Shown here piece by piece: positions 6,960 through 33,903 of a DNA stretch of 36,523 nucleotides; within the stretch, counting starts at the first letter, position 1, and each line of letters begins with the position of its first letter. The translations under genes were made by a program, and so were the position numbers. This stretch comes from Rhodospirillales bacterium 69-11. Lineage in GTDB: Bacteria; Pseudomonadota; Alphaproteobacteria; Acetobacterales; Acetobacteraceae. The stretch covers positions 1-36,523 of the forward strand of contig MKTV01000061.1 of assembly GCA_001898425.1 (NCBI GenBank). Direction: 5' to 3'. A model generated the notes under the pieces. It did not search any database, was not told where the DNA came from, and saw only the letters and a list, made by a program, of their open reading frames with translations.

Positions 6960-8969
6960 ATGCGCCGGATCGTCATGATCGGAAACTGCCAGGTCTCGTC
7001 GATGATGACGCTGTACAAGCGCTTCGTCGCGGTTCGGACCGGTGATGTGGTGGACTACGTGGCGTCCTACGCCGATCTGGATGCGGCCGCGAAGGAGCGG
7101 ATCCGCAACGCCGACGTGGTCGTCGAGCAGTTGCTGGACCTGAAACCCGCCGCGGAGTCCGAGGGGCTGAGCGACGCGCCTCGCGTGCGGATTCCGATGG
7201 TAACGGCGGCCTTCCTCTGGCCCTTCGCCGGGCAGGAGCATCCGAAGAACGAGCGGACAGGCTTCCTGCCCAGCGGCCCGTATGGGGCGGAGGCCAGCGA
7301 CGGTTACCTGAACCGGTTGCTGCAGCAGGGCCTGGACCCGGATGAGGCAGCCGCGGCCTATCTGGCGCTCGACGTTGGCCAGAAGGTGAATCTCGACCGG
7401 CTGTACGAGCTGGTGATGGACCGGCAGCGCAGCCGCGACGAGGCCGCGGGTTATCGCATCGCCGATTCGATCGCCCGGCATTTCCGCAGCGAACCGATCT
7501 TCCTGACGCCGTATCATCCCCACGCCCGCATTGCCCGCGTTCTCGCCGAACAGCTCTTCCGTCAGCTCGGTGCTTCCCGCGCCGATATCGAGCGCATGCG
7601 CAACGCCACGCTGGTGACCCCTTTCCCGAAGGAAGAGCTGCCGATCCACCCGGCGGTCGCGCGGCATTTCGACCTGCAATGGGTCGGCCCCCAGACCAGC
7701 TACCGGCTGCTGAACGAGGGGCGTTTCACCTTCCCGGAGTTCGTGGCGCGCTACGTGCGCGTCGCGTGGAACCCGGCGCTGGAAGAGGGGATCGTGGCGA
7801 CCCGCACGCCGCGACTGCCGGAGGCGGAGGCGCTGCTGCGCCAGGGACTGGCACAAAGCCCGCGTTCGGGTGCGGGCTGGAACGCACTCCGGTCGGTGCT
7901 GCTGCGGCAAGGTCGCGTCGAGGAGGCGCTCCAGGCCGGGCGGCGCGCCGTCATGCTCGAGCCGGACTTGGCGCCGTATCGGAGCGAGCTGGGGTCGCTG
8001 CATCGCGACGCCGGGCGCTGGGCCGAGGCCGAGGCGGAGTTCCGTCGCGCCCTGCTGGTCAATCCGTCCGAAACCCGCGCCATCGTCCTGCTCGCCCACG
8101 TGCTGAAGGACCAGGGTCGCTTGGACGAGGCCTTCGCGACCGTGATGCAGGGGCTGGAGGGCGAGCCTTACGCGGCAAACCTGCACCGCACGCTGGCCCA
8201 CCTGTTCGAGGCGACCGGTCAGATTGCCGAGGCGGTTGCCGCGCTCGACCGCGTGCTTGCGTTGACGCCCGACGATCCCGGCGCGCGCGCCCGCCGCGAC
8301 GAACTCGCGAAGCATGCGGGCAAGTCCGCCGGGCCGCCTTCGACCGCGACACCGCCAGCCGCAAGCCGGTCTTCCGCGTCCGCACCAAGTCCGCAACAAG
8401 CTGCTGCATCGCCGGGCTCGCCGGCGACCCAGGGGCCGCCCAGCCAGCCCGAGGACGGGATCCAGCAGCTTCGACGCGCCACGGATGCCGATCCGGCGAA
8501 CCCGCACCTCGCGCACGAACTGAGCGCGGCACTGCAACGCGAAGGGCGACTGCCGGAGGCCCTCGCAGCGGCGCGGCTCGCGGCCACGCGTGACCCCCGC
8601 AACCCGTTCCGGCAGGAGCGCATCGGCCATCTCGCCTCCCGTCTCGGCGATCTGGCGGCGGCGGAGCAGGCATTTCGGGCGGCCGTCGAGATCGCCCCGC
8701 ACAAGGCGAATTTCCGCACGCCGCTGAGCGACGTCCTGATCCGGCAGGGCCGCCTGCCCGAAGGGGTGGCGGAGGCGCGCCGTGCGACCGAGGTCGACCC
8801 CGGGAATCCGAAGGCGTTCGGCTTCCTCGCCCACGCGCTCACCCTGGCCGGAGAGATCGAGGCGGCGGAGGCGGCCGTGAGCACGGCGATCGGACTGGAT
8901 CCTCGCGACGAGGCGCTGGCGGCGCAACTGGCCGCCCTGCGGCAGCGACGGGCGCGCGGCGAGCGCTGA
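6960..8969 (+). CDS. WcbI-like polysaccharide-modification domain fused to TPR repeats
   Basis: The protein is 669 aa. The N-terminal ~265 residues start MRRIVMIGNCQ; the GNCQ motif at 8-11 marks the WcbI family (putative acetyltransferase of capsule biosynthesis). Conserved-looking HPHARIA and PHxxRI-type histidines lie around residues 185-190. Residues ~270-450 form tetratricopeptide repeats (A..LLR.GR..EAL.A.R.A....P pattern). A Pro/Ser/Ala-rich, probably disordered linker follows (~455-500), then a second TPR block (~500-665). The start was placed at 6960 because the frame upstream of it is low-complexity leader; the ribosome site there is weak. The family suggests carbohydrate or capsule modification, with the TPRs as protein docking or peptide-binding units. 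No polysaccharide genes flank it, so the partner is unknown. Confidence 0.75.
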   Translation: MRRIVMIGNCQVSSMMTLYKRFVAVRTGDVVDYVASYADLDAAAKERIRNADVVVEQLLDLKPAAESEGLSDAPRVRIPMVTAAFLWPFAGQEHPKNERTGFLPSGPYGAEASDGYLNRLLQQGLDPDEAAAAYLALDVGQKVNLDRLYELVMDRQRSRDEAAGYRIADSIARHFRSEPIFLTPYHPHARIARVLAEQLFRQLGASRADIERMRNATLVTPFPKEELPIHPAVARHFDLQWVGPQTSYRLLNEGRFTFPEFVARYVRVAWNPALEEGIVATRTPRLPEAEALLRQGLAQSPRSGAGWNALRSVLLRQGRVEEALQAGRRAVMLEPDLAPYRSELGSLHRDAGRWAEAEAEFRRALLVNPSETRAIVLLAHVLKDQGRLDEAFATVMQGLEGEPYAANLHRTLAHLFEATGQIAEAVAALDRVLALTPDDPGARARRDELAKHAGKSAGPPSTATPPAASRSSASAPSPQQAAASPGSPATQGPPSQPEDGIQQLRRATDADPANPHLAHELSAALQREGRLPEALAAARLAATRDPRNPFRQERIGHLASRLGDLAAAEQAFRAAVEIAPHKANFRTPLSDVLIRQGRLPEGVAEARRATEVDPGNPKAFGFLAHALTLAGEIEAAEAAVSTAIGLDPRDEALAAQLAALRQRRARGER

Positions 8970-9144: not shown

Positions 9145-9951
9145 ATGTCCGACCCGTACGCCCGCTACACGCGGCTCCGCTTCGATCGCCCGCATCCGGC
9201 CGTGCTCCGCGTCACGATGGACAACGGCAAGATGAATACCGCCGACGCCGTCCTGCATGCGGAGCTCGCTGATATCTGGCGCGACGTCGATCGCGATCCG
9301 ACGGTGAATGCCATTGTGCTGACCGGTGCCGGCCGCGTGTTCTCGGCCGGCGGCGATTTCGCGATGATCCAGGAGAACATCGACGATTTCGAAGCGCGTG
9401 CGCGGCAATGGCGGGAGGCGCGCGACATCGTCTACAACCTGATCAACTGCAGCAAAGCCGTGGTGAGCGCGATGCGCGGCGTCGCGGTGGGCGCCGGCTT
9501 GGTCTGCGGCCTGCTCGCAGACATTTCCATCGCGACGAAGGACTGCCGGATCATCGACGGTCACACGCGGCTGGGCGTCGCCGCGGGTGACCATGCAGCG
9601 ATCGTCTGGCCGCTGCTGTGCGGTCTCGCCAAGGCGAAGCTCTACCTGCTGCTGTGCGACGAAGTGCGCGGGGAGGAGGCGGAGCGGATCGGCCTGATCG
9701 GGTTGGCGGTGGACGACGCGGTGCTCGACGACAAGGCGGTGGAGATCGCGACGCGCCTCGCGACCGGGGCACAGAGCGCGATCCGCTGGACGAAATACGC
9801 CCTCAACAACTGGTTGCGGACCGCGGGGCCGACCTTCGACGCGTCGTTGGCGCTGGAGTTCCTGGGGTTCGGGGGACCGGAGGTGAAGGAAGGGCTGGCC
9901 GCGCATCGGGAGAAGCGCCCGCCGCGGTTTCCGCCGGGCTCGATGGTCTGA
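9145..9951 (+). CDS. Enoyl-CoA hydratase/isomerase (crotonase) family protein
   Basis: The protein is 268 aa, starting at the ATG that follows AGGAGGAA by 6 nt. Crotonase-fold landmarks are the first oxyanion-hole loop [12 protein letters not shown] (61-72) and the second, [21 protein letters not shown] (about 110-130). Where classic hydratases carry two catalytic Glu residues, this protein has GHTRLGV and AAGDHA (139-150). Asp149 is therefore the only obvious acid in the active-site loop. The chemistry may be hydration, isomerisation or hydrolysis of an acyl-CoA. It converges on the MaoC-fold/SDR genes and could work with them, although it is transcribed separately. Confidence 0.85.
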
Positions 9952-10022: not shown

Positions 10023-10505
10023 TCAGCCTTCGGTGCGGGCCTTGATCATGCGCAGCGGCGTGTAGCTCAGCACCATGGTGCCGTCCTGCGTGATGACGCG
10101 GTTCCGGGTGCGCACCAGCCCACGGTTGGGGCGGCTGCGGCTGCGGCGGCTCTCGATCACCTCGCAGGCGACGTGGATCGTGTCGCCGACGCAGGTGGGA
10201 CCGTGCACCGAGAGCTGCATCTCGAGGAAGGCGAACCCGGTGTGCTGCATCGTCGCATGCACCAACAGCCCCTCGGCGAAGGCGTAGACCATCGCCCCCG
10301 GAACGACGCGGCGCTTGATGTCGCTTTCGGCCGCGAGGAACTCGGTGTTGGTGAACAGCACCTCCGTCATGCCGGTCACGCCGACGAAGCCGACCAGGTC
10401 CGCCTCCGTCAGTGTCCGCCCGATCGTGCGGAAGCGGCGTCCGAGTGGAAGGTCTTCGAAGTGGAGGCCGAGGCCGAGGACCTCGTCGCCGTCGATCTCC
10501 GTCAT
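10023..10505 (-). CDS. MaoC-fold (hotdog) acyl-CoA dehydratase-like protein, catalytic dyad absent
   Basis: The 160-aa single-hotdog protein resembles the MaoC dehydratase family: a DLPLGRRF-type opening, TLTEADLVGFVG (31-42), then VPGAMVYAFAEGLL and a beta-rich second half with VGDTIHVACEVIESR. The family active site reads like TGDxNPxH; here the equivalent stretch is TGMTEVLF (44-51). Both the catalytic Asp (Met46) and His (Phe51) appear missing. It may bind acyl-CoA without hydratase activity, or use other residues. It begins 13 nt after the SDR gene on the same strand, with GGAG as ribosome site, so the two are co-transcribed. Confidence 0.8.
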   Translation of the reverse strand: MTEIDGDEVLGLGLHFEDLPLGRRFRTIGRTLTEADLVGFVGVTGMTEVLFTNTEFLAAESDIKRRVVPGAMVYAFAEGLLVHATMQHTGFAFLEMQLSVHGPTCVGDTIHVACEVIESRRSRSRPNRGLVRTRNRVITQDGTMVLSYTPLRMIKARTEG

Positions 10506-10518
10506 GCGCGTTGCTCCG

Positions 10519-11274
10519 TCACACCATGGTCAGTCCGCCGGAGACGCTGAGCGTCTGGCCGGTGACGTAGGCTGAATCGTCCGACAGCAAGAAGGCGATG
10601 GCGCCGGGATAGTCCTGCGGCTGGCCGATGCGCTTCAACGGAATCGCGCGCGCCATGGCCTCGGCGATCTTGGGTCCTGCGGGCGAATCGGCTTGTACTG
10701 CGGCGAACAATGGCGTGTCGGTCGGGCCAGGGCACAGCACGTTCAGAGTGATGCCGCTGCGCGCCAGCTCACGAGCCATGGTCTTGGTGAACGCGATGAT
10801 GCCGCCCTTGCAGGCCGCGTACACCGCCTCACCGGAGGAGCCGACGCGGCCGGCATCGGACGCGACGTTGACCACGCGCCCGAACCCGGCGGCCACCATG
10901 CGCGGCAGCACCACGTGGTGCATGTGCAGCGGGCCGTAGAGATTGATGCGGATGATGCGGTCCCACAGCACCGGGTCGGTGTCCAGGAACGGCCGCATCA
11001 CGTCCCAGCCTGCGACGTTGGCGAGCAGGTCGATGCCGCCGAAGCGCTGCACGAAGGCGTCGACCGCCGCTTCCACCTGCGTGCGGTCGCCGATATCCGC
11101 CTGCCATGACGCCGCGGGACCGGCGCAGGCCGAGGCCGTCGCGGCGGCCCCGTCACCGTCGAGATCGAGGATCCCGACATGGCACCCTTCCTCGGCCAGC
11201 CGGAGCGCGGCGGCGCGCCCGATGCCGCTCGCGCCGCCTGTCAGCAGGACCCGTTTGCCTGCCAGCCCTCGCAT
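10519..11274 (-). CDS. Short-chain dehydrogenase/reductase, BadH-like
   Basis: The 251-aa classical SDR has the Rossmann motif TGGASGIG (12-19) and an Asp at the end of beta2 (LDLDG, about 37-39), which favours NAD over NADP. The NVAG element is at 86-89, with catalytic Asn111, Ser139, Tyr152 and Lys156 in NVASDAGRVGSSGEAVYAAC. This active-site stretch is close to what I recall of BadH, 2-hydroxycyclohexanecarboxyl-CoA dehydrogenase of alicyclic acid degradation. That resemblance is by eye only. GGGAGGAA precedes the ATG by 4-5 nt. It lies 87 nt after the M20 hydrolase gene and 13 nt before the MaoC-fold gene. Confidence 0.88.
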   Translation of the reverse strand: MRGLAGKRVLLTGGASGIGRAAALRLAEEGCHVGILDLDGDGAAATASACAGPAASWQADIGDRTQVEAAVDAFVQRFGGIDLLANVAGWDVMRPFLDTDPVLWDRIIRINLYGPLHMHHVVLPRMVAAGFGRVVNVASDAGRVGSSGEAVYAACKGGIIAFTKTMARELARSGITLNVLCPGPTDTPLFAAVQADSPAGPKIAEAMARAIPLKRIGQPQDYPGAIAFLLSDDSAYVTGQTLSVSGGLTMV

Positions 11275-11361
11275 CGCTTCCTCCCGCGTTCCCGGCCTCC
11301 GAGCTTCGCGCGCCGGGACGGGGGGAGCAAGTCGAGCTGCGGCGCGAAGGATCGCGTGCCG

Positions 11362-12588
11362 TCAGCGATCCGCGCGACGCAGGACCGCGTTCAGCAGCAC
11401 GTCCGCACCGGCCGCGCAGTGCGCCGGCTCGCAATATTCGAGCTCGTTGTGCGAGATGCCGTCGCGGCACGGCACGAAGATCAGCTCGACCGGGCAGAGC
11501 CGCAGCAGGTTGAACGCATCGTGGCCCGGCCGGGTGCGCATGCGCATCACGCTGTGGCCAAGCTCCGTGGCGATCGACTCGGTCAGCGCGATCAGCTCCT
11601 CGGTGAACAGCACCGGATCGCGGCGGCGATGGAACGGCGTATCGAATTCCAGACCGGTTTCCGATGCAATCACCGCGGTCGCCGCGGCGAGCTCGGCCTG
11701 CATGGCCTCGAGCCCCTGGGCGTCCGGATGCATCAGACCATAGCTGAACACCGCGCGGTGGGGGATGTTGATGCGGTTGTTCGGCCAGGAATCGATCACT
11801 ACGGCGCTTGCCGATCCGGCTGGCGCATGGGCGCGGCCGATCCGGTCCGTCTCGGCGATCAGCTTCGCCGCGCCGACCAGCGCATTGCGCCGGCGCAGCA
11901 TCGGCATGCTCTGGATGTGCGCGTTGTCGCCGCGGCACTCGACGTCGGCCATGATCGAGTAGTGGCTGTGCGTGACGGCGCCGATCGTGACGCCCGCGTC
12001 TTCCAGCAGCGGCCCCTGCTCGATGTGCAGCTCGAAATAGGCGTCGACCGAGCGGCCGCCGATGGGCGTGGGGCCGTCGGCGCGGATGCGGGCGAGTTCG
12101 GCGGCGACGGTGCGACCTGCGCGGTCCGTTGCGGCGAAGGCCGTCTCGGGTGACAGCGCGCCGGCGAAGACCGCCGATCCCATCAGGCCGGGGAAGAAGC
12201 GGCAGCCTTCCTCGTTGGTCCAGTTCACCACTTCGATGGCGCGGCGCGTCGTGACGCCGGCGGCATCCAGGGCTCGCATGGCGGCCAGCGCCGCGAGCAC
12301 ACCCAGGGGACCGTCGAACTTGCCGCCGGGTGATTGCGTGTCCAGGTGACTGCCGGCGAGGACCGGCGGCAGCGACGGGTCGCTGCCTTCCCGCCGCGCG
12401 AACATGTTGCCGATGCCGTCCACGGTGACGGTCAGCCCCGCCTCGGCGCACCAGTGCGCGAACAGCGCACGGCCGTCACGGTCGGCATCGGTCAGCGCCA
12501 TGCGATCGTTGCCGCCGCGCGGCAGTGCGCCGATCGTCCCCAGGGTCATCAGGTCGGACCAGAGCCGGTCCGCGTCGACATGCAGCAT
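11362..12588 (-). CDS. M20-family hydantoinase/carbamoylase (N-carbamoyl amino acid or ureide amidohydrolase)
   Basis: The 408-aa zinc-dependent amidase belongs to the family that includes N-carbamoyl-L-amino-acid hydrolase, beta-ureidopropionase and allantoate amidohydrolase. The metal ligands are recognisable: GSHLDTQSPGGKFDG (His81, Asp92), NEEGCRF (Glu126/Glu127), FELHIEQG (His188) and a C-terminal SHNELE (His380). RPGHDAFN is the family's substrate-site segment. The ATG overlaps the stop of the formamidase-like gene by one base (TGATG), so translation is coupled. Its product would be an amine plus CO2 and ammonia from a carbamoyl compound. The exact substrate cannot be read from the sequence. 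Confidence 0.9.
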   Translation of the reverse strand: MLHVDADRLWSDLMTLGTIGALPRGGNDRMALTDADRDGRALFAHWCAEAGLTVTVDGIGNMFARREGSDPSLPPVLAGSHLDTQSPGGKFDGPLGVLAALAAMRALDAAGVTTRRAIEVVNWTNEEGCRFFPGLMGSAVFAGALSPETAFAATDRAGRTVAAELARIRADGPTPIGGRSVDAYFELHIEQGPLLEDAGVTIGAVTHSHYSIMADVECRGDNAHIQSMPMLRRRNALVGAAKLIAETDRIGRAHAPAGSASAVVIDSWPNNRINIPHRAVFSYGLMHPDAQGLEAMQAELAAATAVIASETGLEFDTPFHRRRDPVLFTEELIALTESIATELGHSVMRMRTRPGHDAFNLLRLCPVELIFVPCRDGISHNELEYCEPAHCAAGADVLLNAVLRRADR

Positions 12589-13541
12589 CAGAACAGCAAG
12601 CCTTTCTTCAGCAACCCGTGCACGCCTTTTTCGCCGTTCACGGTCTGGGTGACATGGAAGTCGACGGCCAGCGAGCAGAAGGCGTAGGCCTGCTCGCGGG
12701 AGAGGTTCGTGCGGCTGCAGATGAAGCCGATCATCTCGCGCAGCGCCTGCTTCATGGCCTGATCCAGGTCCTCGTTCAGCCCCATGCTGATGAAATGTGT
12801 GGGCGTCTCGGCGCGCGGGTGGGTGAGCAGCGCCTGGCCCGACGGCGCCTTGTGCAGCACGAAGGTGAACGTGCCGGTCAGGCACATCTCCAGCGCGGTG
12901 ACGCAAACCTCGCCGTCGCCCTGCACGCCATGCCCGTCGCCCACCGAGAAGTTGGCACCCGGCACCCAGACCGGCAGGAACAGCGTACTGCCGGCGGTGA
13001 GTTCCTTGTTGTCCAGATTGCCGCCGTGGATGCGCGGCTCCTTGGACGCGATGCGCCCGAACGCGGGCGGTGGCGCGACGCCCATCACGCCGAAGAAGGG
13101 TGCGAGCGGCAGTTCGGTGCCCCAGGGCAGCGTGCAGATGTTCCGCGCCGCATCGACCGGAATGTGCATCAGCGTGGTGTCGTGGAAGTCCTCGGGCAGC
13201 GTGCCGGCGAGAGGGCGGATCAGATTGTAGCCCCAGTTCGCCCCCGGCTCGATCTTGTCGATCCGGATCTCCAGCATGTCTCCCGGCATGGCGCCGGCGA
13301 TGGCGATCGGTCCGGTCACGATGTGCCCGGCCTGGGTCCCGGGGTTGGCCGCGAGGATGGCGGACAGTTCGGGCGGGATCGTCAGGCCGCTGCCGGGCGG
13401 CGGCAGCACGGCCTCCCGGCCGGAGACGCACTGCACCTCGACCGTGTCGCCGGATTCGACGTGGAACACCGGCGGGAACGCCGCGTCGAATACGCCCACC
13501 CGCACCGTTTCGGGCGAGGCTCTGAGGGTATGGAAGGTCAT
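12588..13541 (-). CDS. Acetamidase/formamidase family protein
   Basis: The 317-aa protein of the FmdA/AmdA family hydrolyses small amides such as formamide or acetamide to acid and ammonia. Typical stretches are HVESGDTVEVQC (about 27-38), GHIVTGPIAI, GDMLEIRI, GANWGYN, the HIPVDAARNICTLPWG segment, and the metal/substrate region GGNLDNKEL followed by VGDGHGVQGDGEVC. The ATG at 13541 has GAGAGGAG upstream, partly overlapping the end of the amidase gene (13-nt gap). The longer open frame upstream runs antisense-like through the amidase and is not real. It sits between the amidase and the M20 hydrolase in one unit, so it may remove a small amide released by a neighbour. Confidence 0.9.
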   Translation of the reverse strand: MTFHTLRASPETVRVGVFDAAFPPVFHVESGDTVEVQCVSGREAVLPPPGSGLTIPPELSAILAANPGTQAGHIVTGPIAIAGAMPGDMLEIRIDKIEPGANWGYNLIRPLAGTLPEDFHDTTLMHIPVDAARNICTLPWGTELPLAPFFGVMGVAPPPAFGRIASKEPRIHGGNLDNKELTAGSTLFLPVWVPGANFSVGDGHGVQGDGEVCVTALEMCLTGTFTFVLHKAPSGQALLTHPRAETPTHFISMGLNEDLDQAMKQALREMIGFICSRTNLSREQAYAFCSLAVDFHVTQTVNGEKGVHGLLKKGLLF

Positions 13542-13554
13542 CGCTCGTCTCCTC

Positions 13555-14955
13555 TCAGGCGGCCATCGGCGGCCGCATGGCGCGGAAGCCCGTGGCCTTT
13601 TCGAACGCATCGGCCACGCGCAGCACCACCGCTTCCTGGAACGGCTTGCCGGCGATCTGCAACGAGACCGGCAGGCCGGCGGGTCCGAATCCGGAGCAGA
13701 CCGCGATTGCGGGGGTGCCCGCAACGTTGAACGGCATGGTGAAGTTGGGCGCGGCGAACAGGTCCCAGCGCGGCACGTCCTCCAGCGTCGGCGCCTCGCC
13801 GGGCGCACCGGCGGTGATGACCACGTCCAGGTCCGCCATGGCCGCGGCGAGTTCCGCGCACAGCTCCCGCCGGCGTCGTACCGCCTGCACGTAGTCGACG
13901 CCCGAGACGAAGGCGCCGAGCATCAGCCGGCGCTGCACCCGTTCGGAGAAGTCGGCGAAACGGGTGCGTGCCCATTCCTCATAGGCGGCAGCCCGTTCGG
14001 TGATGGAGATCAGCGAGCCGCAGGCATGCCAGTCCGCGAGCGGGGACAGCGTCACGTCCCGGACCATCGCGCCCAGGTCGCGGAACGTTGCCACCGCATC
14101 GTCGATGCCCTTCTGGGTGGCGGGCGCGACCTTCAGGTCGGTCTCGTGGAAGTGCCGGATCACGCCGATCCGCATGCCCCGCAGCCCTTGGCCCAAGGCG
14201 GCCGTGTAGTCGGGAACCGGATGCTGCGCGGACGCCGGGTCGCGCGGATCCGGGCCGGCCAGCGCCTGCAGCATCAGCGCGCAATCCTCCGCGGTCCAGG
14301 CCATCGGGCCGATATGGTCCAGGCTGAACGCGGCCGGGAAGACCCCGGCACGGGAGACGAGCCCATAGGTCGGCTTCAGCCCCGCGATCCCGCACAGCGC
14401 CGCCGGGCCGCGGATGGAGCCGCCGGTATCGGTACCGATCCCGCACAGGATCATGCCGGCCGCCACCGCCGCCCCGGTGCCGCTGGAGGAGCCGGCGGTG
14501 AAGTGGTCGGTGTTCCACGGATTGCGCGCGGGCGGCTGGGGCAGGTCGAAGGATGGTCCGCCATCGGCGAATTCGTGCGTGGTGAGCTTGCCCATCAGCA
14601 CCGATCCCGCCGCCGCCAGTCGCGCGGCGCAGGTCGCGTCCTCGGTGGGAACATGGTCCTGCAGGATGGCGGACTGGCAGGTGGTGCGCAGGCCGGCCGT
14701 CTCGACGATGTCCTTGAGGCCGATCGGAATGCCGTGCAGCGGCGAGCGCGGGCCGGAGCGCATGATCTCGGCCTCCCCCGCCTTCGCCTCCGCGATCGCG
14801 CGTTCCTCGGTCAGCAGGACGAAGGCATTCAGGCGTTCTTCCAGCCGATGCACCCGGTCGAGACACGCCTGGGTCAGCTCCACCGGGGAAAGCTGCCGTG
14901 CGGCGATCAGCCGCGCGGCTTCGGCGAGCGTGGGAATGTTGCCGTCGGCGCTCAT
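13555..14955 (-). CDS. Amidase-signature family hydrolase (AtzE/GatA-like)
   Basis: The 466-aa amidase-signature enzyme keeps the full Ser-cisSer-Lys triad: Lys81 in IGLKDI, the Ser run at 156-158 in AGSSSGTGAAVAAG, and nucleophile Ser180 in GTDTGGSIRGPAALCG. The closest well-known functional types are GatA, AtzE (1-carboxybiuret hydrolase) and general amide hydrolases. Its ATG overlaps the stop of a 66-aa gene by 4 bp (ATGA), the arrangement seen for AtzE with its small partner AtzG. There is no tRNA-amidotransferase gatB nearby, so a metabolic amide or ureide role is more likely than tRNA amidation. Confidence 0.92.
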   Translation of the reverse strand: MSADGNIPTLAEAARLIAARQLSPVELTQACLDRVHRLEERLNAFVLLTEERAIAEAKAGEAEIMRSGPRSPLHGIPIGLKDIVETAGLRTTCQSAILQDHVPTEDATCAARLAAAGSVLMGKLTTHEFADGGPSFDLPQPPARNPWNTDHFTAGSSSGTGAAVAAGMILCGIGTDTGGSIRGPAALCGIAGLKPTYGLVSRAGVFPAAFSLDHIGPMAWTAEDCALMLQALAGPDPRDPASAQHPVPDYTAALGQGLRGMRIGVIRHFHETDLKVAPATQKGIDDAVATFRDLGAMVRDVTLSPLADWHACGSLISITERAAAYEEWARTRFADFSERVQRRLMLGAFVSGVDYVQAVRRRRELCAELAAAMADLDVVITAGAPGEAPTLEDVPRWDLFAAPNFTMPFNVAGTPAIAVCSGFGPAGLPVSLQIAGKPFQEAVVLRVADAFEKATGFRAMRPPMAA

Positions 14956-15152
14956 GCCGCGTCCTCCGGCTTCGGCGCGAAGCCGTGTGCGAGTTCGGCG
15001 AGAGGGCCGCGTGGCTGCCGCACCCGCGCCTTCATGGCGGCGAGGCCCTGGACGACCGTCTTGAGCTCCTGCCGCTGCGCGTCGGTGAGGGACAGGCCGG
15101 CTTCGGCCAGCAGATGGGCGAGCGTCTCGTCGCCGATGGTCGTCGGGGGCAT
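14952..15152 (-). CDS. Small AtzG/GatC-like partner of the amidase
   Basis: The 66-aa protein starts at the ATG at 15152 with AAGGAG 9 nt upstream; the open frame extends 33 codons further but without a ribosome site. The sequence has two short helices (LAHLLAEAGLSLTDAQRQEL, then VVQGLAAMKARVR), followed by a Pro-containing tail ending in HGFAP. This layout, the GLSLT turn and the F-x-P ending resemble the AtzG/DUF4089 and GatC small subunits that wrap and stabilise amidase-signature enzymes. It is the first gene of the minus-strand unit, with ATGA overlap into the amidase. The family assignment is by pattern and context, not by search. Confidence 0.6.
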   Translation of the reverse strand: MPPTTIGDETLAHLLAEAGLSLTDAQRQELKTVVQGLAAMKARVRQPRGPLAELAHGFAPKPEDAA

Positions 15153-15301
15153 CCTGGCACTCCTTGGGTTGGCAGGGCTGGGGCCGCGCAACGGGGCTCC
15201 GGCGATGCCGACCGATGGGAGCAAGAAGCGGGCCGATGCAGGACGGGGCATTTTGCTCCAGATGCCTGATTTTCGACCTTCCGGATGATAGCGGTGCGTA
15301 C

Positions 15302-15325
15302 CAACGTGACTGTCTGCCTACGTTG
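15302..15325. promoter_or_regulatory. Perfect inverted repeat in the divergent promoter region of the amide-hydrolase cluster
   Basis: CAACGT (15302-15307) and ACGTTG (15320-15325) form a perfect 6-bp inverted repeat with a 12-bp spacer, inside the 251-bp gap between the two divergent hydrolase units. The right arm overlaps a possible -35 (TTGCGC, 15323-15328), followed 16 bp later by TGTAAG (15345-15350) for the plus-strand unit. The geometry fits a dimeric repressor site. The rest of the gap (15153-15301) shows nothing else I can name. Confidence 0.45.
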
Positions 15326-15403
15326 CGCCAAATTCAGCTCGGCTTGTAAGCTGCCATCCGCGACATGCCGCTCCACTTTTGGGCCGGCAGCCAGGAGGTC
15401 TCC

Positions 15404-16102
15404 ATGAACGGCGTCACCTTCCCCCAGGCCGTGATCGATCGGGTCCTCGCCCGCCGCGGAACCGCCCATGTCTTCGCCGACCTCGACCCGGCCCGCACCG
15501 CGCTCGTGGTGATCGACCTGCAGCGCGCCTTCATGGATGACGCCGTCGGCCACGCCGTCTGCCCGGCGGCCCGCGACATCGTTCCCAACGTCAACCGCCT
15601 TGCCGCGGCCATCCGTACGGCGGGGGGCGGCGTGTTCTGGGTCAAGAACACCTTCGATGCGAGCTGCCTGACCGAGTGGTCCGTCATGCAGGATATCTCC
15701 ACGCCGGCCATGCGCGCCAAGCGTGCGGCCGCGATGACGGAAGGCACCCCCGGCCACGATCTCTGGCCCACGCTCGAGGTCGGGCCGGACGACGAGATCG
15801 TGCAGAAGAAGCGCTTCAGCGCCTTCCTGCCCGGCGCGTCCGCATTGCCGGATCGGCTGCGGGCGCGCGGCTTCGACACCGTCCTCATCACCGGCACCGT
15901 CACCAACGTCTGCTGTGAAAGCTCGGCCCGCGATGCGATGATGACGAACTTCCGCACCGTCATGGTGAGCGACGCGAACGCCGCCACCACCCAGGCAGAA
16001 CACGAGGCATCCTTGACCGCATTCTACCTGACGTTCGGCGACGTCATGGACACCGACATGGTGATCGGCCTTCTGGCCGGCCATGCGAAGGCCGCCGCCT
16101 GA
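15404..16102 (+). CDS. Isochorismatase-like cysteine amidohydrolase (RutB/BiuH type)
   Basis: The 232-aa protein starts at the ATG 4 nt after AGGAGGTC; a start 39 nt upstream lacks a ribosome site. The cysteine-hydrolase triad is clear: Asp38 in VVIDLQ, Lys135 in QKKRFSAF, and Cys170 in TGTVTNVCCES, with the GTVTN turn forming the cis-peptide. The TNVC-ES-RDA pattern is that of ureidoacrylate hydrolase RutB, biuret hydrolase BiuH and relatives rather than true isochorismatase, which would need a different context. It hydrolyses an amide or carbamoyl bond in the cytoplasm. Its stop overlaps the next gene by one base (TGATG). Confidence 0.9.
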   Translation: MNGVTFPQAVIDRVLARRGTAHVFADLDPARTALVVIDLQRAFMDDAVGHAVCPAARDIVPNVNRLAAAIRTAGGGVFWVKNTFDASCLTEWSVMQDISTPAMRAKRAAAMTEGTPGHDLWPTLEVGPDDEIVQKKRFSAFLPGASALPDRLRARGFDTVLITGTVTNVCCESSARDAMMTNFRTVMVSDANAATTQAEHEASLTAFYLTFGDVMDTDMVIGLLAGHAKAAA

Positions 16103-17100
16103 TGGCCAAGCCGAAGGTCGCGTTCATCGGCACGGGGGGCACCATCGCCTCGATCGGCAAGGACCCGCTCGACATCGTCGACTATGGCGCGAACGGCGTC
16201 ATGCTGCAGGCCGACGAGATCGTCGCGAAGTTTCCCGAGGTCCATCTCGTGGCTGACGTCATTCCCGTCCGCTACCGCGCCGTGCCGAGCTACGACATTT
16301 TCTTCGAGGATTGGAAGGCGATCGGCCGGCTGTGCACCGATCTGGTCGCGCAGCATCCGGACCTCGCGGGGATCGTGGTGGGGCACGGCACCGCCTCGCT
16401 GGAGGAAACGGCGTATTTCCTCAATCTCACGCTGAAGGTCGACGTGCCCGTGGTAGTTGTCGGGTCCCAGCGCCCGGCGAGCGCGCTGTCGACCGATGCC
16501 GGGTTCAACCTGGTGAACGCGATCCGCACCGCCGCCAGCCCCGAGGCGCGCGGCATGGGCGTGATGGTGCTGCTGAACGACGAAATCCACAGTGCGCGGG
16601 AGGTCACCAAGACCTCCACCTTCCGCCTGCAGACCTTCCGCTCCCCCGATTTCGGCGTGCTCGGTCATGCCGATGGCGATCGTGTCGCCTTCTACCGCGC
16701 GCCGCTTCGCCGGCGCATGCCGGATACCGAGTTCGATGTGAGCGGGCTGGCAGCCCTGCCGCGGGTTGACATCGCCTATTCCTACACCGGGTCGGATGGC
16801 GCGGCGGTCCGCGCCTTCGTCGCGGCTGGGGCGCAGGGCATCGTCTCCGCCGGGTTCGCACCCGGCTTCGCGGGCTCCGGCGACGCTGCGGCCATGCGGG
16901 AGGCGGTGGCCCAGGGCGTGACCGTGATGCAGTGCACCCGCGCCGGCAGTGGGCGGATGTTCCGCGGCACGCGTCTGCGGGAGAGCGGGTTCCTGGTCAC
17001 GGACAACCTCAACCCGCAAAAGGCGCGGCTGCTGCTGGCGCTCGCGCTGACGGTCACGCGCGAGCCCGCAGAGATCGAGCGGATCTTCGCCACCTACTGA
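16102..17100 (+). CDS. Asparaginase-fold amidohydrolase with altered substrate motif
   Basis: The 332-aa protein of the asparaginase/glutaminase family has the nucleophile Thr14 in GTGGTIAS (10-17), Tyr28 at the flexible-loop position, Ser63, and the second motif GHGTASLEETAYFL (94-107). Lys170 in VTKTSTF completes the second catalytic set. In classical L-asparaginases the second motif reads HGTDT, and its Asp binds the amino group of asparagine. Here Thr97 is kept but that Asp is Ala98. The enzyme is probably an amidase for a substrate lacking the alpha-amino group, or a different amide. It is coupled to the upstream cysteine hydrolase by a one-base overlap. Confidence 0.88.
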   Translation: MAKPKVAFIGTGGTIASIGKDPLDIVDYGANGVMLQADEIVAKFPEVHLVADVIPVRYRAVPSYDIFFEDWKAIGRLCTDLVAQHPDLAGIVVGHGTASLEETAYFLNLTLKVDVPVVVVGSQRPASALSTDAGFNLVNAIRTAASPEARGMGVMVLLNDEIHSAREVTKTSTFRLQTFRSPDFGVLGHADGDRVAFYRAPLRRRMPDTEFDVSGLAALPRVDIAYSYTGSDGAAVRAFVAAGAQGIVSAGFAPGFAGSGDAAAMREAVAQGVTVMQCTRAGSGRMFRGTRLRESGFLVTDNLNPQKARLLLALALTVTREPAEIERIFATY

Positions 17101-17173: not shown

Positions 17174-18625
17174 CTACTTGCTGCCGGCGAACCCCCCGGC
17201 TGCGGCGCGCAGCGCGGCTTCCAGCCGCTTCGCCGTGTCGGTGGCAAGAGCGGAGGGCGTGCCGGCGAACCCCATGACCAGCCCCGCCATCCGGGGCGGA
17301 CCGGCGTAGTAGGCGTGCAGCGGGGCAACCGCGAGGCCTCGGGTGCGGCAGGCGCGCACGGCCGCCGCCTCGTCCAGTCCATTCGCGAGTCGCGCCACCA
17401 TGTGCAGCCCGCCGGGGGCCGGGATCGCCGCCAGGGACGGCACGTGCCTGTCGAGCGCGGCGAGCAGGGCGGCACGGCGCCGGGCATACTCGGTCCGCAT
17501 GCGGCGGATATGCGGCGCAAGCAGGCCCTGCCGCATGAACTCGGCCAGCACCGCCTGATTCAGCCCGTCCGTCCCACGATCCATCAGCGTGCGCAGCCGG
17601 ACGAAGGCGGGAACCAGCGGTCCCGGCACCACCGCGAAGCCCAGCCGCAGCGCCGGTGCGAGCGTCTTGCTGAAAGTGCCGCAGTAGATCACGCGCCCGG
17701 CCTGGTCGAGCGAGGCGAGCGGCGGCAGCGGCCGTCCTTCCCACCGGAACTCGGAATCGCAATCGTCTTCCAACACCCAGGCGCCGGCACGCGTCGCCCA
17801 GTCGAGCAGCGCGAGACGTCGTCCGATCGGCAGCGCGCCGCCGAGCGGCGTGGCATGGGAGGGGGCGACGAGGACGAGGCGGGCGTCGGGTGCGCGGTCG
17901 ATCCCGGCCGCAACGTCCAAACCCTCCTCGTCGCTGGGCACCGGTACGGGAACCGCGCCGGCGGCGAGGAGGGCGCCGCGACCGGCGATGTAGCCGGGAT
18001 CCTCCACCCAGGCGGCATCACCGGGGTCGAGCAGGAGTTCCGCGGCGGTACGCAGTGCCTGCTGCGTGCCCGCAGTGACGACGATGCAACCCGGATCGGC
18101 AATCAGCCCGCGGGTGGCGGCCAGGTGCGCGGCGATTTGTTCGCGCAGCTCCAGCAGACCTTGCGGCGGCGGGTAGCTGGCGAGTTCTCCGGCCAATGGT
18201 CGGAGTGCGCGGCTGGCACACCGGGCCCAGGCCTGCACCGGGAAGAGGTCCGGGGCCGGGAGGCCGCCAGCCAGCAGCATGCCGAGACCGCCGTCCCGCG
18301 CCGCTGCGGTGGCGGGTATTTCCGCCAGGCGCTTGCCGCGTGCCGACAGGGCGGCCGCCGCGGTGTCCGGGACGGCGGTTCGGGCCGGCGCGGCGTCGGG
18401 CAGGTCGGGTGCGACATAGGTGCCGCTGCCGGTGCGGGCGCGCACATAGCCTTCGGCGGCGAGGCGTTCATACGCGAGCACCACCGTCTGACGGGCGACG
18501 CCGAGTTCGGAGGCGAGGGCGCGGGTCGGCGGAAGGCGGGCGTTGATGGGCAGGGTGCCGGTCAGGATGGCCTGGCGCAATCGCTCGAAAACGGCCTGCT
18601 GGCGCGTTTGGTCCGGCGCAAGCAT
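17174..18625 (-). CDS. MocR-type transcriptional regulator (GntR winged helix + PLP aminotransferase-like domain)
   Basis: The protein is 483 aa. Residues ~8-75 form a GntR winged helix-turn-helix (RLPPTRALASELGVARQTVV, then AAEGYVRARTGSGTYV). After a short linker, residues ~115-480 form a fold-type I aminotransferase-like domain with the PLP lysine Lys320 in GTFSKTLAPALRLGF and the LEDDCDSEFR element upstream of it. Such proteins use PLP or a PLP adduct as effector and often control vitamin B6, GABA or taurine genes, or neighbouring PNPOx-fold genes. A palindrome lies 12-35 nt upstream of its own ATG, suggesting autoregulation. The same half-site occurs upstream of the PNPOx-fold gene at 20565. 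No good ribosome site is seen. Confidence 0.92.
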   Translation of the reverse strand: MLAPDQTRQQAVFERLRQAILTGTLPINARLPPTRALASELGVARQTVVLAYERLAAEGYVRARTGSGTYVAPDLPDAAPARTAVPDTAAAALSARGKRLAEIPATAAARDGGLGMLLAGGLPAPDLFPVQAWARCASRALRPLAGELASYPPPQGLLELREQIAAHLAATRGLIADPGCIVVTAGTQQALRTAAELLLDPGDAAWVEDPGYIAGRGALLAAGAVPVPVPSDEEGLDVAAGIDRAPDARLVLVAPSHATPLGGALPIGRRLALLDWATRAGAWVLEDDCDSEFRWEGRPLPPLASLDQAGRVIYCGTFSKTLAPALRLGFAVVPGPLVPAFVRLRTLMDRGTDGLNQAVLAEFMRQGLLAPHIRRMRTEYARRRAALLAALDRHVPSLAAIPAPGGLHMVARLANGLDEAAAVRACRTRGLAVAPLHAYYAGPPRMAGLVMGFAGTPSALATDTAKRLEAALRAAAGGFAGSK

Positions 18626-18636
18626 TGGAATACGGG

Positions 18637-18660
18637 CTCCCGGATTGGTCCAATCGGGAG
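18637..18660. promoter_or_regulatory. Palindromic operator upstream of the MocR gene
   Basis: The core GATTGG-T-CCAATC (18643-18655) is a perfect 13-bp palindrome. It is extended outward by CTCCCG (18637-18642) and GGGAG (18656-18660), with one base missing from one arm. On the minus strand, TTGTTG and TACGCT with 17-bp spacing lie just upstream of it, so the palindrome would cover the transcription start. This fits repression of the gene by its own product. Binding is inferred, not shown. Confidence 0.5.
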
Positions 18661-18722
18661 CGTAATCCGGTCACGGTCGTGCAACAAGACGGCTTTGCAC
18701 GCCGGGTGCGTCGCGTACGCGC

Positions 18723-18760
18723 GATCACGCGGCGCGAACCGCTGTTCGAGCCGCGTGATC
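18723..18760 (-). terminator. Long stem-loop downstream of rpsU
   Basis: GATCACGCGG (18723-18732) and CCGCGTGATC (18751-18760) are perfect 10-bp inverted arms. Inside them CGAAC and GTTCG pair around a CGCT loop, separated from the outer stem by a 2x2 mismatch. The 38-bp structure lies 42 nt past the rpsU stop and is the strongest hairpin I see in the window. No T run follows, so it may be a terminator, an mRNA stabiliser or a dispersed palindromic element. The palindrome CGCGTACGCG sits next to it at 18712-18721. Confidence 0.55.
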
Positions 18761-18801
18761 CGTATTGGGTCTGCCTCGTCGGGAAACGAGGGTGCGGGCG
18801 C

Positions 18802-19005
18802 TTAGAAGCCCTCGCGCTCGAGCCGCTTGCGCTCCAGCTTGCGGGCGCGGCGCACGGCCTCTGCCGCCTCACGGGCGCGGCGTTCGGACGGCTTCTCGTA
18901 ATGCCGCCGGAGCTTCATCTCGCGGAAAATCCCCTCCCGCTGCATCTTCTTCTTGAGCGCCTTCAGCGCCTGGTCGACGTTGTTGTCACGCACGAGGACT
19001 TGCAC
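18802..19005 (-). CDS. rpsU: 30S ribosomal protein bS21
   Basis: The 67-aa protein has a GTG start ([20 protein letters not shown]) and the family hallmark [16 protein letters not shown], followed by a basic Ala/Arg-rich tail typical of alphaproteobacteria. It is part of the small ribosomal subunit and helps mRNA start-site pairing. AGGAG lies 11 nt upstream of GTG. The frame is open far upstream across def, but that extension is antisense shadow. The gene diverges from def, and its own promoter is recognisable in the gap. Confidence 0.97.
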
Positions 19006-19095
19006 TTGGCCGCCTACTCCTCTCGCTGAAGCGCTCCGACCATCGGAAGCGCATGAAACAGGCCCGCAGTCGGCTGCCCGACGCGGGAGGCGGGG

Positions 19096-19124
19096 CCTAT
19101 AGCATGGTCCCCGCCGGACACCAA
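19096..19124 (-). promoter_or_regulatory. Candidate rpsU promoter
   Basis: On the minus strand TTGGTG (19124-19119) and TATAGG (19101-19096) are separated by exactly 17 bp, about 90 nt upstream of the rpsU GTG. The -10 matches four of six consensus bases and the -35 three. The 153-bp gap is shared with def, whose promoter I could not place with confidence. Confidence 0.45.
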
Positions 19125-19158
19125 TGGTAATTGCGACCCACTCGAACGGAGGCTCGCA

Positions 19159-19800
19159 TTGGCCATTCTGAAGATCGCCCGCATGGGCCACCCGGTGCTG
19201 CTGCAACGCTGCGCACCGGTCGAGGATCCCGGGGCCCCGGAGATCCGCCGCCTGGTCGCCGACATGATGGAGACGATGGAGGACGCCCCGGGCGTGGGCC
19301 TCGCCGCACCACAGGTGCATGTGCCGCTCCGGCTGTTCGTATTCCGCATCCCCGGTGAGCGCGCCAGCCCGGATGCCGAGGACACGCGCGTCCCGAACTC
19401 GGTGTTGATCAACCCCACGATGGAGCTGATGGGGGAGGAGCGGGCCCTGGGCTGGGAAGGCTGCCTGTCCATCCCCGGCCTGCGCGCCGCGGTGCCCCGT
19501 GCGACCCGGGTCCGCTACCGCGGCGTGGATTGCGATGGCAGGCCGGTCGAGCGCGAGGTCACCGGCTTCCATGCCCGCGTCGTGCAGCACGAGTACGATC
19601 ACCTGGATGGGGTCCTCTACACCATGCGCCTGACGGATTTCGGCCTGTTCGGGTTCAACGAGGAGTTGGGCCGCGCCGCGGAGGCCGCGCAACGCGAGGC
19701 CGCCTCGGCCAATGCCGGGTCGGCCGCGTCCGCAGGTGCGGCTCCCGGAGCTGGCACCTCGGGGCGAGCGGGTCCGACCGGCGCGGAGGCGGCGCGATGA
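19159..19800 (+). CDS. def: Peptide deformylase
   Basis: The metalloenzyme removes the formyl group from nascent N-terminal methionine. It starts with TTG ([14 protein letters not shown]), and GGAGG lies 6 nt upstream. All three family motifs are present: [16 protein letters not shown] with metal-binding Cys102, and HEYDH with His144, catalytic Glu145 and His148. The ~40-residue C-terminus is an Ala/Gly-rich tail (after about 175) not needed for catalysis, making the 213-aa chain longer than usual. It overlaps the next gene by 4 bp (ATGA). No fmt gene follows, unlike the common def-fmt pair. Confidence 0.97.
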
Positions 19801-20411
19801 TCCCGGCCCCGGAACGCTCGGTCGAGCGCGACGCCGCACTCGACGCGCTGCTCCCCAACGTGCCGTTCGACGGCTGGACGTGGCGGGCGCTGCGCCAGGG
19901 CCTCGCCGCGGCCGGCGCACCGCCCGACGATGCGGAACTTCTGTTCCCGGGCGGCGCCACCGACATGATCGAGGCGTTCCTCGACCTCGCCGACCGGCGG
20001 ATGGAGGAAGGGGCCGCCACCCTGGAGGAGAGCCGGGTCAGCCGCCGGGTGCGGGCGGTGATCGCCCTGCGGCTGGCACAGAACCGGCCGCACAAGGAGG
20101 CGATCCGCCGCGCGGTCGCCGTCCTCGCCCTGCCGCGCAATGCGCGGCTTGCCGCACGCTGCACCGCGCGGACCGTGGACTCGATCTGGCACGCAGCCGG
20201 CGACACCTCCACCGACTTCTCCTGGTACACGAAGCGCGCGATCCTCAGCGCGATCTTCACCGCCACGATGCTGTTCTGGCTGAACGACGCGAGCGAGGAC
20301 GATTCCGCGACGCTCGCCTTCCTCGACCGGCGATTGGCCGACCTGCGGAGGCCCGCGCGACTGCGGCAACGCGCCTCGTCCGTGTTGCAGCGGTTCCGCC
20401 GCGCCGCCTGA
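19797..20411 (+). CDS. COQ9-family ubiquinone biosynthesis protein
   Basis: The 204-aa protein resembles bacterial COQ9: an N-terminal helical TetR-like part opening with [24 protein letters not shown], and a [20 protein letters not shown] segment. The C-terminal lipid-binding region has [38 protein letters not shown], which is the family hallmark. COQ9 binds ubiquinone precursors and helps the COQ7-type hydroxylation step. Its ATG lies inside the last codons of def, and divergent rpsU is also nearby; rpsU-COQ9 proximity is common in alphaproteobacteria. Confidence 0.92.
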
Positions 20412-28493: not shown

Positions 28494-29279
28494 TCAGCCG
28501 CCGACCGCGCGCTTCAGGCCGATCAGCCGGTCCAGCACGATCACGACCGCGAGGGTGAACAGGATCATCACGGCCGCGGCAGCGGCCACCAGCGGGTCGG
28601 TGCGCGACTGCACGTAGCGGAACAGCGCGACCGGGAAGGTGGTGAGGCGCGGACCCACCACGAACAGGCTGATGACCGTCTCGTCGAACGACACGAGGCA
28701 GACGATGGCGCAGGTCGCCGCGACGCCCGGCAGGATCAGCCGCAGGGTCACGCGGCGGAACACCGTGGCCGGCGGGGCGCCGAGACTGGCCGCGGCATCC
28801 TCGAGACCGGCGGGGAGCGTGCCGAGCGCCGTCACCAGGACGCGGGTCGCATAGGGCATGGCGACCAGCAGGTGCGCGAGGACCAGGCCGATCCAGGTGC
28901 CGATCAGCCCGTAGCCGGCGAACAGGATCAGCAATGCCAACCCGAGCACGATGGTCGGCAGCAGCAACGGGGCGGTGAGCAGCGCGAACAGGGCCTCCCG
29001 CCCCGGGAACCGGCCGCGGGCGATCGCCAGGGCTGCCGGGATCGCGAGCAGCAGCGCGGCGGCGGTGACCAGCAGCGCGAGCAGCACGCTGTTGCGCAGC
29101 GCCGCCATCAGGCCGGGATGCTGCACCAGGGCGGCATACCACCGCAGGCTCCAGCCCGAGGGCGGCCAGGCCATGCTGCTGTCGGCCGACAGTGAGAGCG
29201 GGAAGACCAGGATCACCGGCGCGAGCAGGAATAGGAACAGCACGCCAACCAGGGCGTGGAACGCGACGCGGCCCATCAT
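28494..29279 (-). CDS. ABC transporter permease (PotC-like)
   Basis: The 261-aa inner-membrane permease of the polyamine/2-aminoethylphosphonate type has six helices. It carries the cytoplasmic EAA loop EDAAASLGAPPATVFRRVT, which docks the ATPase, and the terminal SFDETVISLFVVGP typical of PotC. The ATG (MMGRV) overlaps the stop of the other permease by 4 bp (ATGA). It is the last gene of the importer unit; the 93 bp after it separate the ExeA-like gene. The longer frame reading into the upstream permease is antisense-like shadow. Confidence 0.93.
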   Translation of the reverse strand: MMGRVAFHALVGVLFLFLLAPVILVFPLSLSADSSMAWPPSGWSLRWYAALVQHPGLMAALRNSVLLALLVTAAALLLAIPAALAIARGRFPGREALFALLTAPLLLPTIVLGLALLILFAGYGLIGTWIGLVLAHLLVAMPYATRVLVTALGTLPAGLEDAAASLGAPPATVFRRVTLRLILPGVAATCAIVCLVSFDETVISLFVVGPRLTTFPVALFRYVQSRTDPLVAAAAAVMILFTLAVVIVLDRLIGLKRAVGG

Positions 29280-30106: not shown

Positions 30107-30110
30107 CGGC

Positions 30111-31169: not shown

Positions 31170-31219
31170 GGGCGAGGTCTCCAGTCGCGGCAGTCTGCCC
31201 GCGGCCCTCGTGGCGGTTC

Positions 31220-31240
31220 AAGCCGGAAACCGGCTTCCGG
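31220..31240. promoter_or_regulatory. Two overlapping, mutually exclusive hairpins in a divergent promoter gap
   Basis: AAGCCGG-AAA-CCGGCTT (31220-31236) is a perfect 7-bp stem. CCGGAA-ACCGGC-TTCCGG (31223-31240) is a perfect 6-bp stem that would replace it. They lie in the 100-bp gap between the binding-protein gene (-) and the GNAT gene (+). They could be an operator or an RNA switch element in the binding-protein leader, about 51-71 nt before its ATG. Confidence 0.35.
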
Positions 31241-31269
31241 TGCACCCCGCACCGCCCCACACTGGCCCG

Positions 31270-31683: not shown

Positions 31684-31720
31684 TCATCGCGCCGGCCGAG
31701 CTGTGCGGAATGGACGTGGA

Positions 31721-31776
31721 GGGCGCCGCGGTCAGGGCGCCGCGGTCAGGTTGCGAGGGTCAGGTTGCCGCGGGGG
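31721..31776. repeat. 14-bp tandem repeat covering the pssA stop codon
   Basis: GGGCGCCGCGGTCA is repeated exactly at 31721-31734 and 31735-31748. A diverged third copy, GGTTGCGAGGGTCA (31749-31762), contains the pssA stop codon (TCA on the plus strand), and a more diverged fourth follows at 31763-31776. Each exact copy carries a further TGA on the minus strand, in shifted frames. It lies between convergent genes. Confidence 0.75.
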
Positions 31777-33333: not shown

Positions 33334-33342
33334 GAGGCGCGG

Positions 33343-33371
33343 TTTATGGATGGTTCACCTTCTGCGGACAA
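33343..33371 (-). promoter_or_regulatory. psd-pssA promoter giving a near-leaderless mRNA
   Basis: On the minus strand TTGTCC (33371-33366) and CATAAA (33348-33343) have a 17-bp spacer, each matching four of six consensus bases. The -10 ends only 9 nt before the psd ATG, so the transcript would begin about 3 nt before the start codon. This agrees with the missing ribosome site. Confidence 0.5.
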
Positions 33372-33401
33372 GACTGCCCGCTCTTGCTGCGGGAGCCGGC
33401 C

Positions 33402-33875: not shown

Positions 33876-33903
33876 CGGCGCGCGGGTCCTCGCTCCAGAC
33901 CAC

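Follow-up and report, generated by a model that had tools for sequence, protein, structure and literature searches.

We found that a window of 36,523 nucleotides from Rhodospirillales bacterium 69-11 (the whole stretch analysed here, contig C61:1-36523 of a 6.48-Mb genome in 124 contigs) carries eight genes in two divergent units, among them hydrolases of five different C-N-cleaving folds, all of which had been named in an earlier note on this DNA and are confirmed by Pfam. We read the eight genes, with a probability of roughly 0.55, as a predicted ammonia-releasing amide or ureide catabolic cluster, assembled from two recurrent modules plus lineage-specific additions and directed at carboxylated amides without a free α-amine. 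Module A would be an isochorismatase-fold cysteine amidohydrolase (ISO) with an asparaginase-fold amidase, tied in some relatives to an Opp-type ABC importer, and module B would be an amidase-signature enzyme with an AtzG-like small partner, accompanied in this genus by an FmdA-type amidase. The putative additions are an M20 carbamoyl/amide hydrolase and an SDR oxidoreductase with a MaoC-like hydratase, this last pair seen in this lineage only.

In the proposed scheme, the Opp-type importer would bring the compound in, in relatives, and the amide or carbamoyl nitrogen would then be removed stepwise, releasing ammonia. Uptake in the window strain might, as a speculation, fall to a locus on contig C32 or to another system. 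The substrates would most likely be small amides with a carboxylate and without a free α-amine, and half-amides of dicarboxylic acids or N-carbamoyl/N-acyl amino acid amides are the candidates.

Gene limits were set with a custom codon-usage gene caller and domains were assigned by Pfam, giving the following features (the minus-strand unit reads leftwards from the centre, from the AtzG-like gene to the MaoC gene):

10023..10505, minus strand: MaoC-like hydratase, 160 aa, final gene of the minus unit (PF01575, 32.5 bits)
10519..11274, minus strand: SDR oxidoreductase, 251 aa (matches SDR families; closest NCBIfam model BadH)
11362..12588, minus strand: M20 amidohydrolase, 408 aa, hydantoinase/carbamoylase family, lacking the carboxylate-binding Arg (Peptidase_M20 PF01546, 81-83 bits; TIGR01879; PRK09290.1-3)
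12588..13541, minus strand: FmdA/AmdA-type amidase, 317 aa (FmdA_AmdA PF03069, 121.8 bits)
13555..14955, minus strand: amidase-signature enzyme, 466 aa, presumed partner of the AtzG-like protein (Amidase PF01425, 357 bits)
14952..15152, minus strand: AtzG/GatC-like small protein, 66 aa, opening the minus unit (from the gene caller; 4-bp overlap with the amidase gene)
15153..15403, no strand: divergent intergenic region, presumed promoter region for both units (partly conserved relative to genome G248)
15404..16102, plus strand: ISO, isochorismatase-fold cysteine amidohydrolase, 232 aa (Isochorismatase PF00857, 133.9 bits)
16102..17100, plus strand: asparaginase-fold amidase, 332 aa, with Asp90 replaced by Ala and Glu283 by Arg (PF00710, 173.3 bits; PF17763, 95.7 bits)

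The earlier note had described the genes as packed with overlaps of 1-4 bp, and this is so at three of the six within-unit junctions (AtzG-like/amidase 4 bp, FmdA/M20 1 bp and ISO/asparaginase 1 bp); the other three have gaps of 13 bp (amidase-FmdA), 87 bp (M20-SDR) and 13 bp (SDR-MaoC). The ISO gene probably starts at 15404 rather than at 15365, because the 13 relatives in the alignment all lack an extended N-terminus and the sequence shared with G248 picks up again at the ATG of MNGVTFP, and this start sets the divergent intergenic region at 15153-15403. These 251 bp are partly conserved relative to G248, for example in the block GGCTTGTAAGCT upstream of ISO, and we presume that they hold the promoters of both units.

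Presumed recognition positions in the hydrolases

The asparaginase-fold protein is the single PF00710 match in the window genome, and it scores below the type II L-asparaginase model asnASE_II (TIGR00520; 280 against a cut-off of 314.3). We compared 54 such proteins from ISO loci (43 distinct, since some genomes are in both collections and contribute copies or near copies). Fifty of them lie directly beside a called ISO gene, L145 has intervening genes, and at L106, L129 and L167 the ISO gene was not called whole; three asparaginase-like genes of less than 300 aa were left out. The positions of Tyr25, Ser58, Thr89 and Lys162 are kept in 54/54, and that of Thr12 in 53 with one gap. In contrast, Asp90 of the Thr89-Lys162-Asp90 triad is Ala in every one of the 54, and the Glu283 position, in a column beside an alignment gap, is Lys in 29 and Arg in 25. 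Asp stands at the Asp90 position in all five printed PDB alignments, three of which are variants of one protein.

The amidase misses both AtzE models (TIGR02715, 265 against 425.75; PRK09201, 284.5 against 461) as well as GatA (TIGR00132, 318.5 against 481.1), for which the GatA of genome L041 scores 579.5. Its closest PDB relatives are nevertheless GatA proteins. It keeps the Lys/Ser/Ser residues and has Pro at the position of GatA Asp425. Collapsing identical rows took the amidases with a small upstream open reading frame from 42 to 41; all 41 retain the Lys, both Ser and Arg358, and the Asp425 position, in a column that follows an alignment gap, is lost in 40. The single Asp425-bearing amidase passes the GatA cut-off (579.5 bits) and lies beside a GatB-like gene, which makes it an unplanned positive control, and in five printed GatA alignments Asp was seen by eye at this position.

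A small open reading frame stands directly upstream of 29 of the 34 full-length amidases found near ISO, and a partnership between the two products is presumed. The 66-aa AtzG-like protein of the window reaches 13 bits with PF13318, below the threshold of 24; its GatC-type Foldseek matches have E values of 2.2 or worse, and the top match, also weak, is from a GATA-GATC entry. The FmdA-type protein meets its Pfam family and misses the formamidase equivalog NF045496 (69.5 against 500). Separately, a more distant FmdA paralogue (about 70-76% identity) lies beside TatA/cytochrome oxidase-like genes, named by eye, at L035-L037, L092-L094 and partly at L038, L039 and L050, a conserved context with no evident amide link.

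The M20 protein passes its family model TIGR01879 (343.5 against 204) and subfamily model PRK09290.1-3 (465.9 against 452). Its metal-site motifs and those of Glu131, Gln196 and His385 are kept throughout, except in the damaged row L204. The Arg291 position, however, is Met, Ile or Val in all 17 rows from nine genomes (the G206 M20 was not returned by the gene caller, and L204, from G238, is partial with a damaged end), and it is Arg in 5/5 printed PDB relatives. According to PMC10952681, Arg291 forms a salt bridge with the carboxylic acid of the ligand, the ligands being modelled; the PDB chain numbering is offset by six from that paper for all four residues, consistently. With this carboxylate clamp lost, the M20 enzyme would be expected to take a substrate form with a masked carboxylate or none, and to act on its carbamoyl or amide group.

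M20 relatives were also seen in two further settings. At L206:7087-10836 and L205:360-4725 (G264, G222) one stands beside another asparaginase-fold gene, with Asn for Asp90 by eye, and an amidase 33% identical to that of the window; this gene appears to be a second non-canonical asparaginase type. At L207:4459-15813 and at L209 one lies near a gamma-glutamyltransferase-like gene, an amidase, an amidohydrolase and an aminotransferase-like gene (names partly by eye), together with a 251-aa protein that no Pfam family matches at E 1e-5.

In ISO, the residues D51, K148 and C183 (numbered from 15365) are invariant in 14/14 aligned proteins. The protein misses the RutB (TIGR03614, 75.2 against 377.95) and BiuH (NF050097, 54.6 against 370) models. 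Its structure model (pLDDT 88) is about as similar to maleamate amidases as to RutB, TrtA and BiuH, a likeness that fits an amide or a ureide substrate and does not choose between them.

The SDR falls below its closest NCBIfam model, BadH (328.9 against 431.2), and the MaoC protein is far under the cut-off of RipB/Ich (46.5 bits against 340); each is 94% identical in G248. The earlier note proposed that the products feed a CoA pathway; these two genes, in two genomes, are what speaks for that link, to which we give little weight. SDR and MaoC may process the carbon part in this lineage.

The hydrolytic positions are thus intact, the presumed amine-recognising positions are changed in two unrelated folds, and the carboxylate-side positions of those two folds, Ser58 and Arg358, are kept; hence, we infer amine-free carboxylated amides as the likely substrate class. 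The residue pattern (Asp90 to Ala in the asparaginase fold, loss of the Asp425 position in the amidase, loss of Arg291 in M20) lends separate support to the idea, voiced in the earlier note, of a substrate that has no name yet. Since two or three of the enzymes lack residues that serve amino-acid recognition in their named relatives, names such as asparaginase are probably wrong, and the sequences suggest the same of carbamoyl-amino-acid hydrolase.

Conservation of the cluster and recurrence of its modules

The nearest full match to the cluster is in G248, which has the identical eight-gene content, order and orientation. Between the window and G248, the eight genes have ratios of non-synonymous to synonymous divergence (dN/dS) of 0.05-0.28 at synonymous divergence (dS) of 0.41-0.58, with no internal stops. 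All eight genes are under purifying selection, and the cluster, maintained in a second genome, is very unlikely to be a chance assembly. Both genomes belong to one genus; hence, maintenance is established here and not wide spread. FmdA, ISO and M20 relatives of G238 lie on different short contigs, which may be a broken-up cluster.

Single parts of the cluster are more widely held. Among the 299 genomes of the order, FmdA relatives (E <= 1e-60) occur in 133, ISO relatives (E <= 1e-40) in 51, MaoC relatives (E <= 1e-25) in 28 and close M20 relatives (E <= 1e-130) in 10. AtzG-like, amidase and FmdA genes stand together in five further same-genus genomes (G203, G220, G222, G062 and G284). At 20 ISO loci within the order, taken non-randomly from the best ISO matches, the asparaginase-fold gene adjoins ISO in 17.

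We scanned named genomes with the ISO alignment and examined the best 80 of at least 556 confirmed relatives, with many Acetobacteraceae among the relatives listed; ISO was called in 78 of the 80 loci, the exceptions being L129 and L167. The asparaginase-fold gene adjoins ISO in 34 of these 80, at least two Opp transporter genes are near ISO in 26, an AtzG-type amidase lies within 9 kb in 21 and FmdA is near in 3. M20, SDR and MaoC (at least 45% identity) are near ISO in one, L115, which is from the same genome as G248. An amidase (at least 43% identity) lies within 9 kb of ISO in 17 of the 26 Opp loci versus 4 of the 52 without Opp (Fisher p 1.6e-7, indicative only, as it rests on related rows).

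In several alphaproteobacterial families, Opp-type transporter genes with AtzG-like/amidase pairs lie on the flanks of ISO. At the Nisaea (L132), Thalassobaculum (L188) and Bosea (L134, L136, L137) loci, the AtzG-amidase pair is divergent from Opp genes followed by ISO and asparaginase; in the Bosea loci a second ISO gene precedes the Opp genes, and at L134 an EamA transporter follows the asparaginase-fold gene, with a GntR/FCD regulator two genes further. The closest outside parallel seen is Bosea caraganae L138, where SDR-FmdA-amidase-AtzG is divergent from ISO as in the window, its SDR being just 30% identical to that of the window. The window ISO itself groups with Opp- and asparaginase-linked ISO from Acetobacteraceae, and after G248 its nearest relative is at L119 (Opp-ISO-asparaginase, 85/84% identical). 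The window genome has a second Opp-ISO-AtzG-amidase locus on contig C32 (L214, G000:C32:236000-245733), which includes two amidases and either one or two genes for binding proteins. The earlier note would have counted as refutation a gene order unique to this genome with the closest relatives in unrelated contexts. For the core this did not come true, as its parts recur with uptake genes in other families; the exact order was found only in two genomes of one genus.

A different set of ISO neighbours was seen at L165:1679-10684 and similarly at L156 and L162 (Chelatococcus, Neorhizobium and Rhizobium; named by Pfam for L165 and by eye for the other two). There ISO lies by an FAD monooxygenase, an SDR and an aldehyde dehydrogenase, with an NMT1/THI5-type binding protein and an arylmalonate-decarboxylase-like gene, and these loci suggest an oxidative route that includes hydrolysis of an amide.

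Flanking genes

Two neighbours enclose the cluster:

9145..9951, plus strand: enoyl-CoA hydratase/isomerase (ECH), converging on the MaoC end, membership putative (PF00378, 141.7 bits)
17174..18625, minus strand: MocR-type regulator with GntR and aminotransferase domains (Pfam)

The cluster in G248 likewise has this ECH gene on one side and, on the other, as much of MocR as its contig contains, in the same place as in the window. In 6/7 same-genus MocR loci fetched, MocR lies beside the S21 gene, and the cluster is in none of them; hence, MocR is probably part of a housekeeping block rather than a cluster-specific regulator. Most of the same-genus loci fetched keep MocR, S21 and the genes at 19159 and 19797 together as a block (window 17174-20411; L236-L243), and the genes 3' of MocR vary among them. 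At four other same-genus loci ECH lies beyond the S21/MocR block, and since its side differs between these and the window, a rearrangement has occurred.

Elsewhere in the window, 6960-8969 encodes a WcbI-like domain fused to a long TPR array, and 28494-35393 is a separate locus with ABC transporter genes (SBP_bac_8, BPD_transp_1) and, further on, a class III aminotransferase.

Alternative explanations and known systems

Several observations weigh against reading the cluster as a dedicated system for amine-free carboxylated amides. The complete set was found in just 2/299 genomes of the order, no transporter is linked to the cluster in the window, and 12 of the 41 ISO loci with 9 kb on both sides have no asparaginase, Opp or amidase gene nearby; ISO is found in a different context too, with flavin monooxygenase, aldehyde dehydrogenase and SDR genes. 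Three of the nine other same-genus genomes in the sample (G057, G113, G264) have just a more distant FmdA, and FmdA relatives outside the genus (77-82% identity) have an AtzG-type amidase nearby in 2/11 loci (G228, G254). Because the residue rows come from related genomes, they cannot be counted as independent events; a two-residue gap adjoins the Glu283 column, which may therefore be shifted by one or two places, another two-residue gap precedes the Asp425 column, and the window genome's own true AtzE was left out of the comparison. The roles of these residues are also our assumption: we take Asp90 and Glu283 of asparaginase to touch the substrate amine, and Arg358 and Asp425 of GatA to hold the carboxylate and amine of glutamine.

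The genes could instead be a nitrogen-scavenging island, in which each hydrolase would have a simple amide of its own as substrate (formamide, acetamide, short amides) and ammonia release would be the only reason for the grouping, with no shared substrate or stepwise pathway. Five unrelated folds suit such an island, as do the FmdA, M20 and MaoC relatives, which stood mostly in other contexts where examined (for MaoC, in five loci), a result that goes partly against the earlier note. The window genome also has 27 stretches that match the allophanate hydrolase (amidase-signature) model, presumably most of them other amidase-signature proteins (one, on contig C38 with an internal TGA, passes the cut-off), which would make amide use a general trait. 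We nevertheless hold this explanation to be unlikely, if worth serious attention, as the ISO/asparaginase-fold and AtzG-like/amidase pairings recur across families and two unrelated folds have both altered positions that face the amine in named relatives. Ordinary use of asparagine, glutamine and N-carbamoyl amino acids under the standard annotations would agree with the 280 bits of the asparaginase II-like protein and with an M20 that passes the carbamoylase family cut-off; it is improbable given the missed asnASE_II cut-off and the loss of Arg291, the carboxylate ligand in PMC10952681. Still less probable is that the divergent units, without functional unity, came to lie side by side by chance at a variable site downstream of the MocR-S21 block. 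Other same-genus genomes do have different genes 3' of MocR, and the units are on different contigs elsewhere (for example G220 and G222), but order and orientation are kept in G248 with similar dS and low dN/dS, and AtzG-amidase is divergent from the ISO unit in Bosea, Nisaea and Thalassobaculum, mostly with intervening Opp genes.

A variant of cyanuric acid/biuret or pyrimidine (Rut) catabolism is scarcely credible. The AtzE, RutB, BiuH and FmdA cut-offs are all missed; hence, the cluster does not represent the known pathway for cyanuric acid, biuret or pyrimidine, and the earlier placing of an amide/ureide-type hydrolase system outside those pathways is upheld. Moreover, the genome has a true AtzE elsewhere, on contig C117 (TIGR02715, 705.1; PRK09201, 732.6; both cut-offs passed), where a 61-aa AtzG-sized gene, AtzE and AtzH/HpxZ in a row (L249:7295-9254) form its atzGEH-type cluster. 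The single AtzH match of the genome (PF11533) is on this contig and absent from the window cluster, and a genome search for AtzD (PF09663) gave no match, but likewise gave none in 14 control genomes.

If the reading as an amide or ureide cluster is true, a set of alphaproteobacterial proteins to which similarity would give the names L-asparaginase, carbamoyl-amino-acid hydrolase and amidase is misnamed, and the gene neighbourhood then points to a single class of substrates that they share and that can be tested, carboxylated amides lacking an α-amine. An asparaginase fold working without Asp90 would then be of interest to enzymologists, and the atzG-atzE idea, of amidases thought to be GatCA-derived and found in nitrogen clusters, would gain a concrete partner set. 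More tentatively, and at somewhat less than even odds, the cluster may belong to an unrecognised alphaproteobacterial pathway that combines Opp-type uptake with deamidation of an amine-free carboxylated compound by an amidase with an AtzG/GatC-type partner, ISO and a non-asparaginase class of the asparaginase fold; the window would be a transporter-free, expanded version (FmdA, Arg-less M20 and CoA-type entry). We recognised no published description of this gene set in the open-access literature.

Each part of the cluster resembles a known system and departs from it. The asparaginase-fold proteins share the fold family of type II L-asparaginase and its Thr12, Tyr25, Ser58, Thr89 and Lys162 positions, but differ at Asp90 (Ala), Glu283 (Arg/Lys) and Gln59 (changed). 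ISO is just 22-27% identical to RutB, biuret hydrolase, triuret hydrolase and maleamate amidase. Like the N-carbamoyl-β-alanine/L-amino acid amidohydrolases (8c46), M20 meets the family cut-off and keeps Glu131, Gln196 and His385, but Arg291, to which PMC10952681 ascribes the binding of the substrate carboxylate, is replaced by Met, Ile or Val. GatCAB amidotransferase supplies the closest PDB relatives of the amidase, through GatA, and a weak resemblance of the small protein to GatC; the cluster amidase is below the GatA cut-off, has Pro at the Asp425 position and has no GatB adjacent. PMC6219798 reports that many Proteobacteria have atzG-atzE-atzH clusters, accompanied by ABC transporters, other amidases and an allantoate hydrolase and seldom by atzD or atzF, and does not settle what they specifically do. 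These clusters and the Pseudomonas sp. ADP atzDGEHF operon have a small gene beside an amidase-signature gene, as here; the cluster of the window differs in having an amidase below the AtzE cut-off and no atzH, atzD or atzF, and its own feature is the partner set of ISO, asparaginase-fold and FmdA enzymes.

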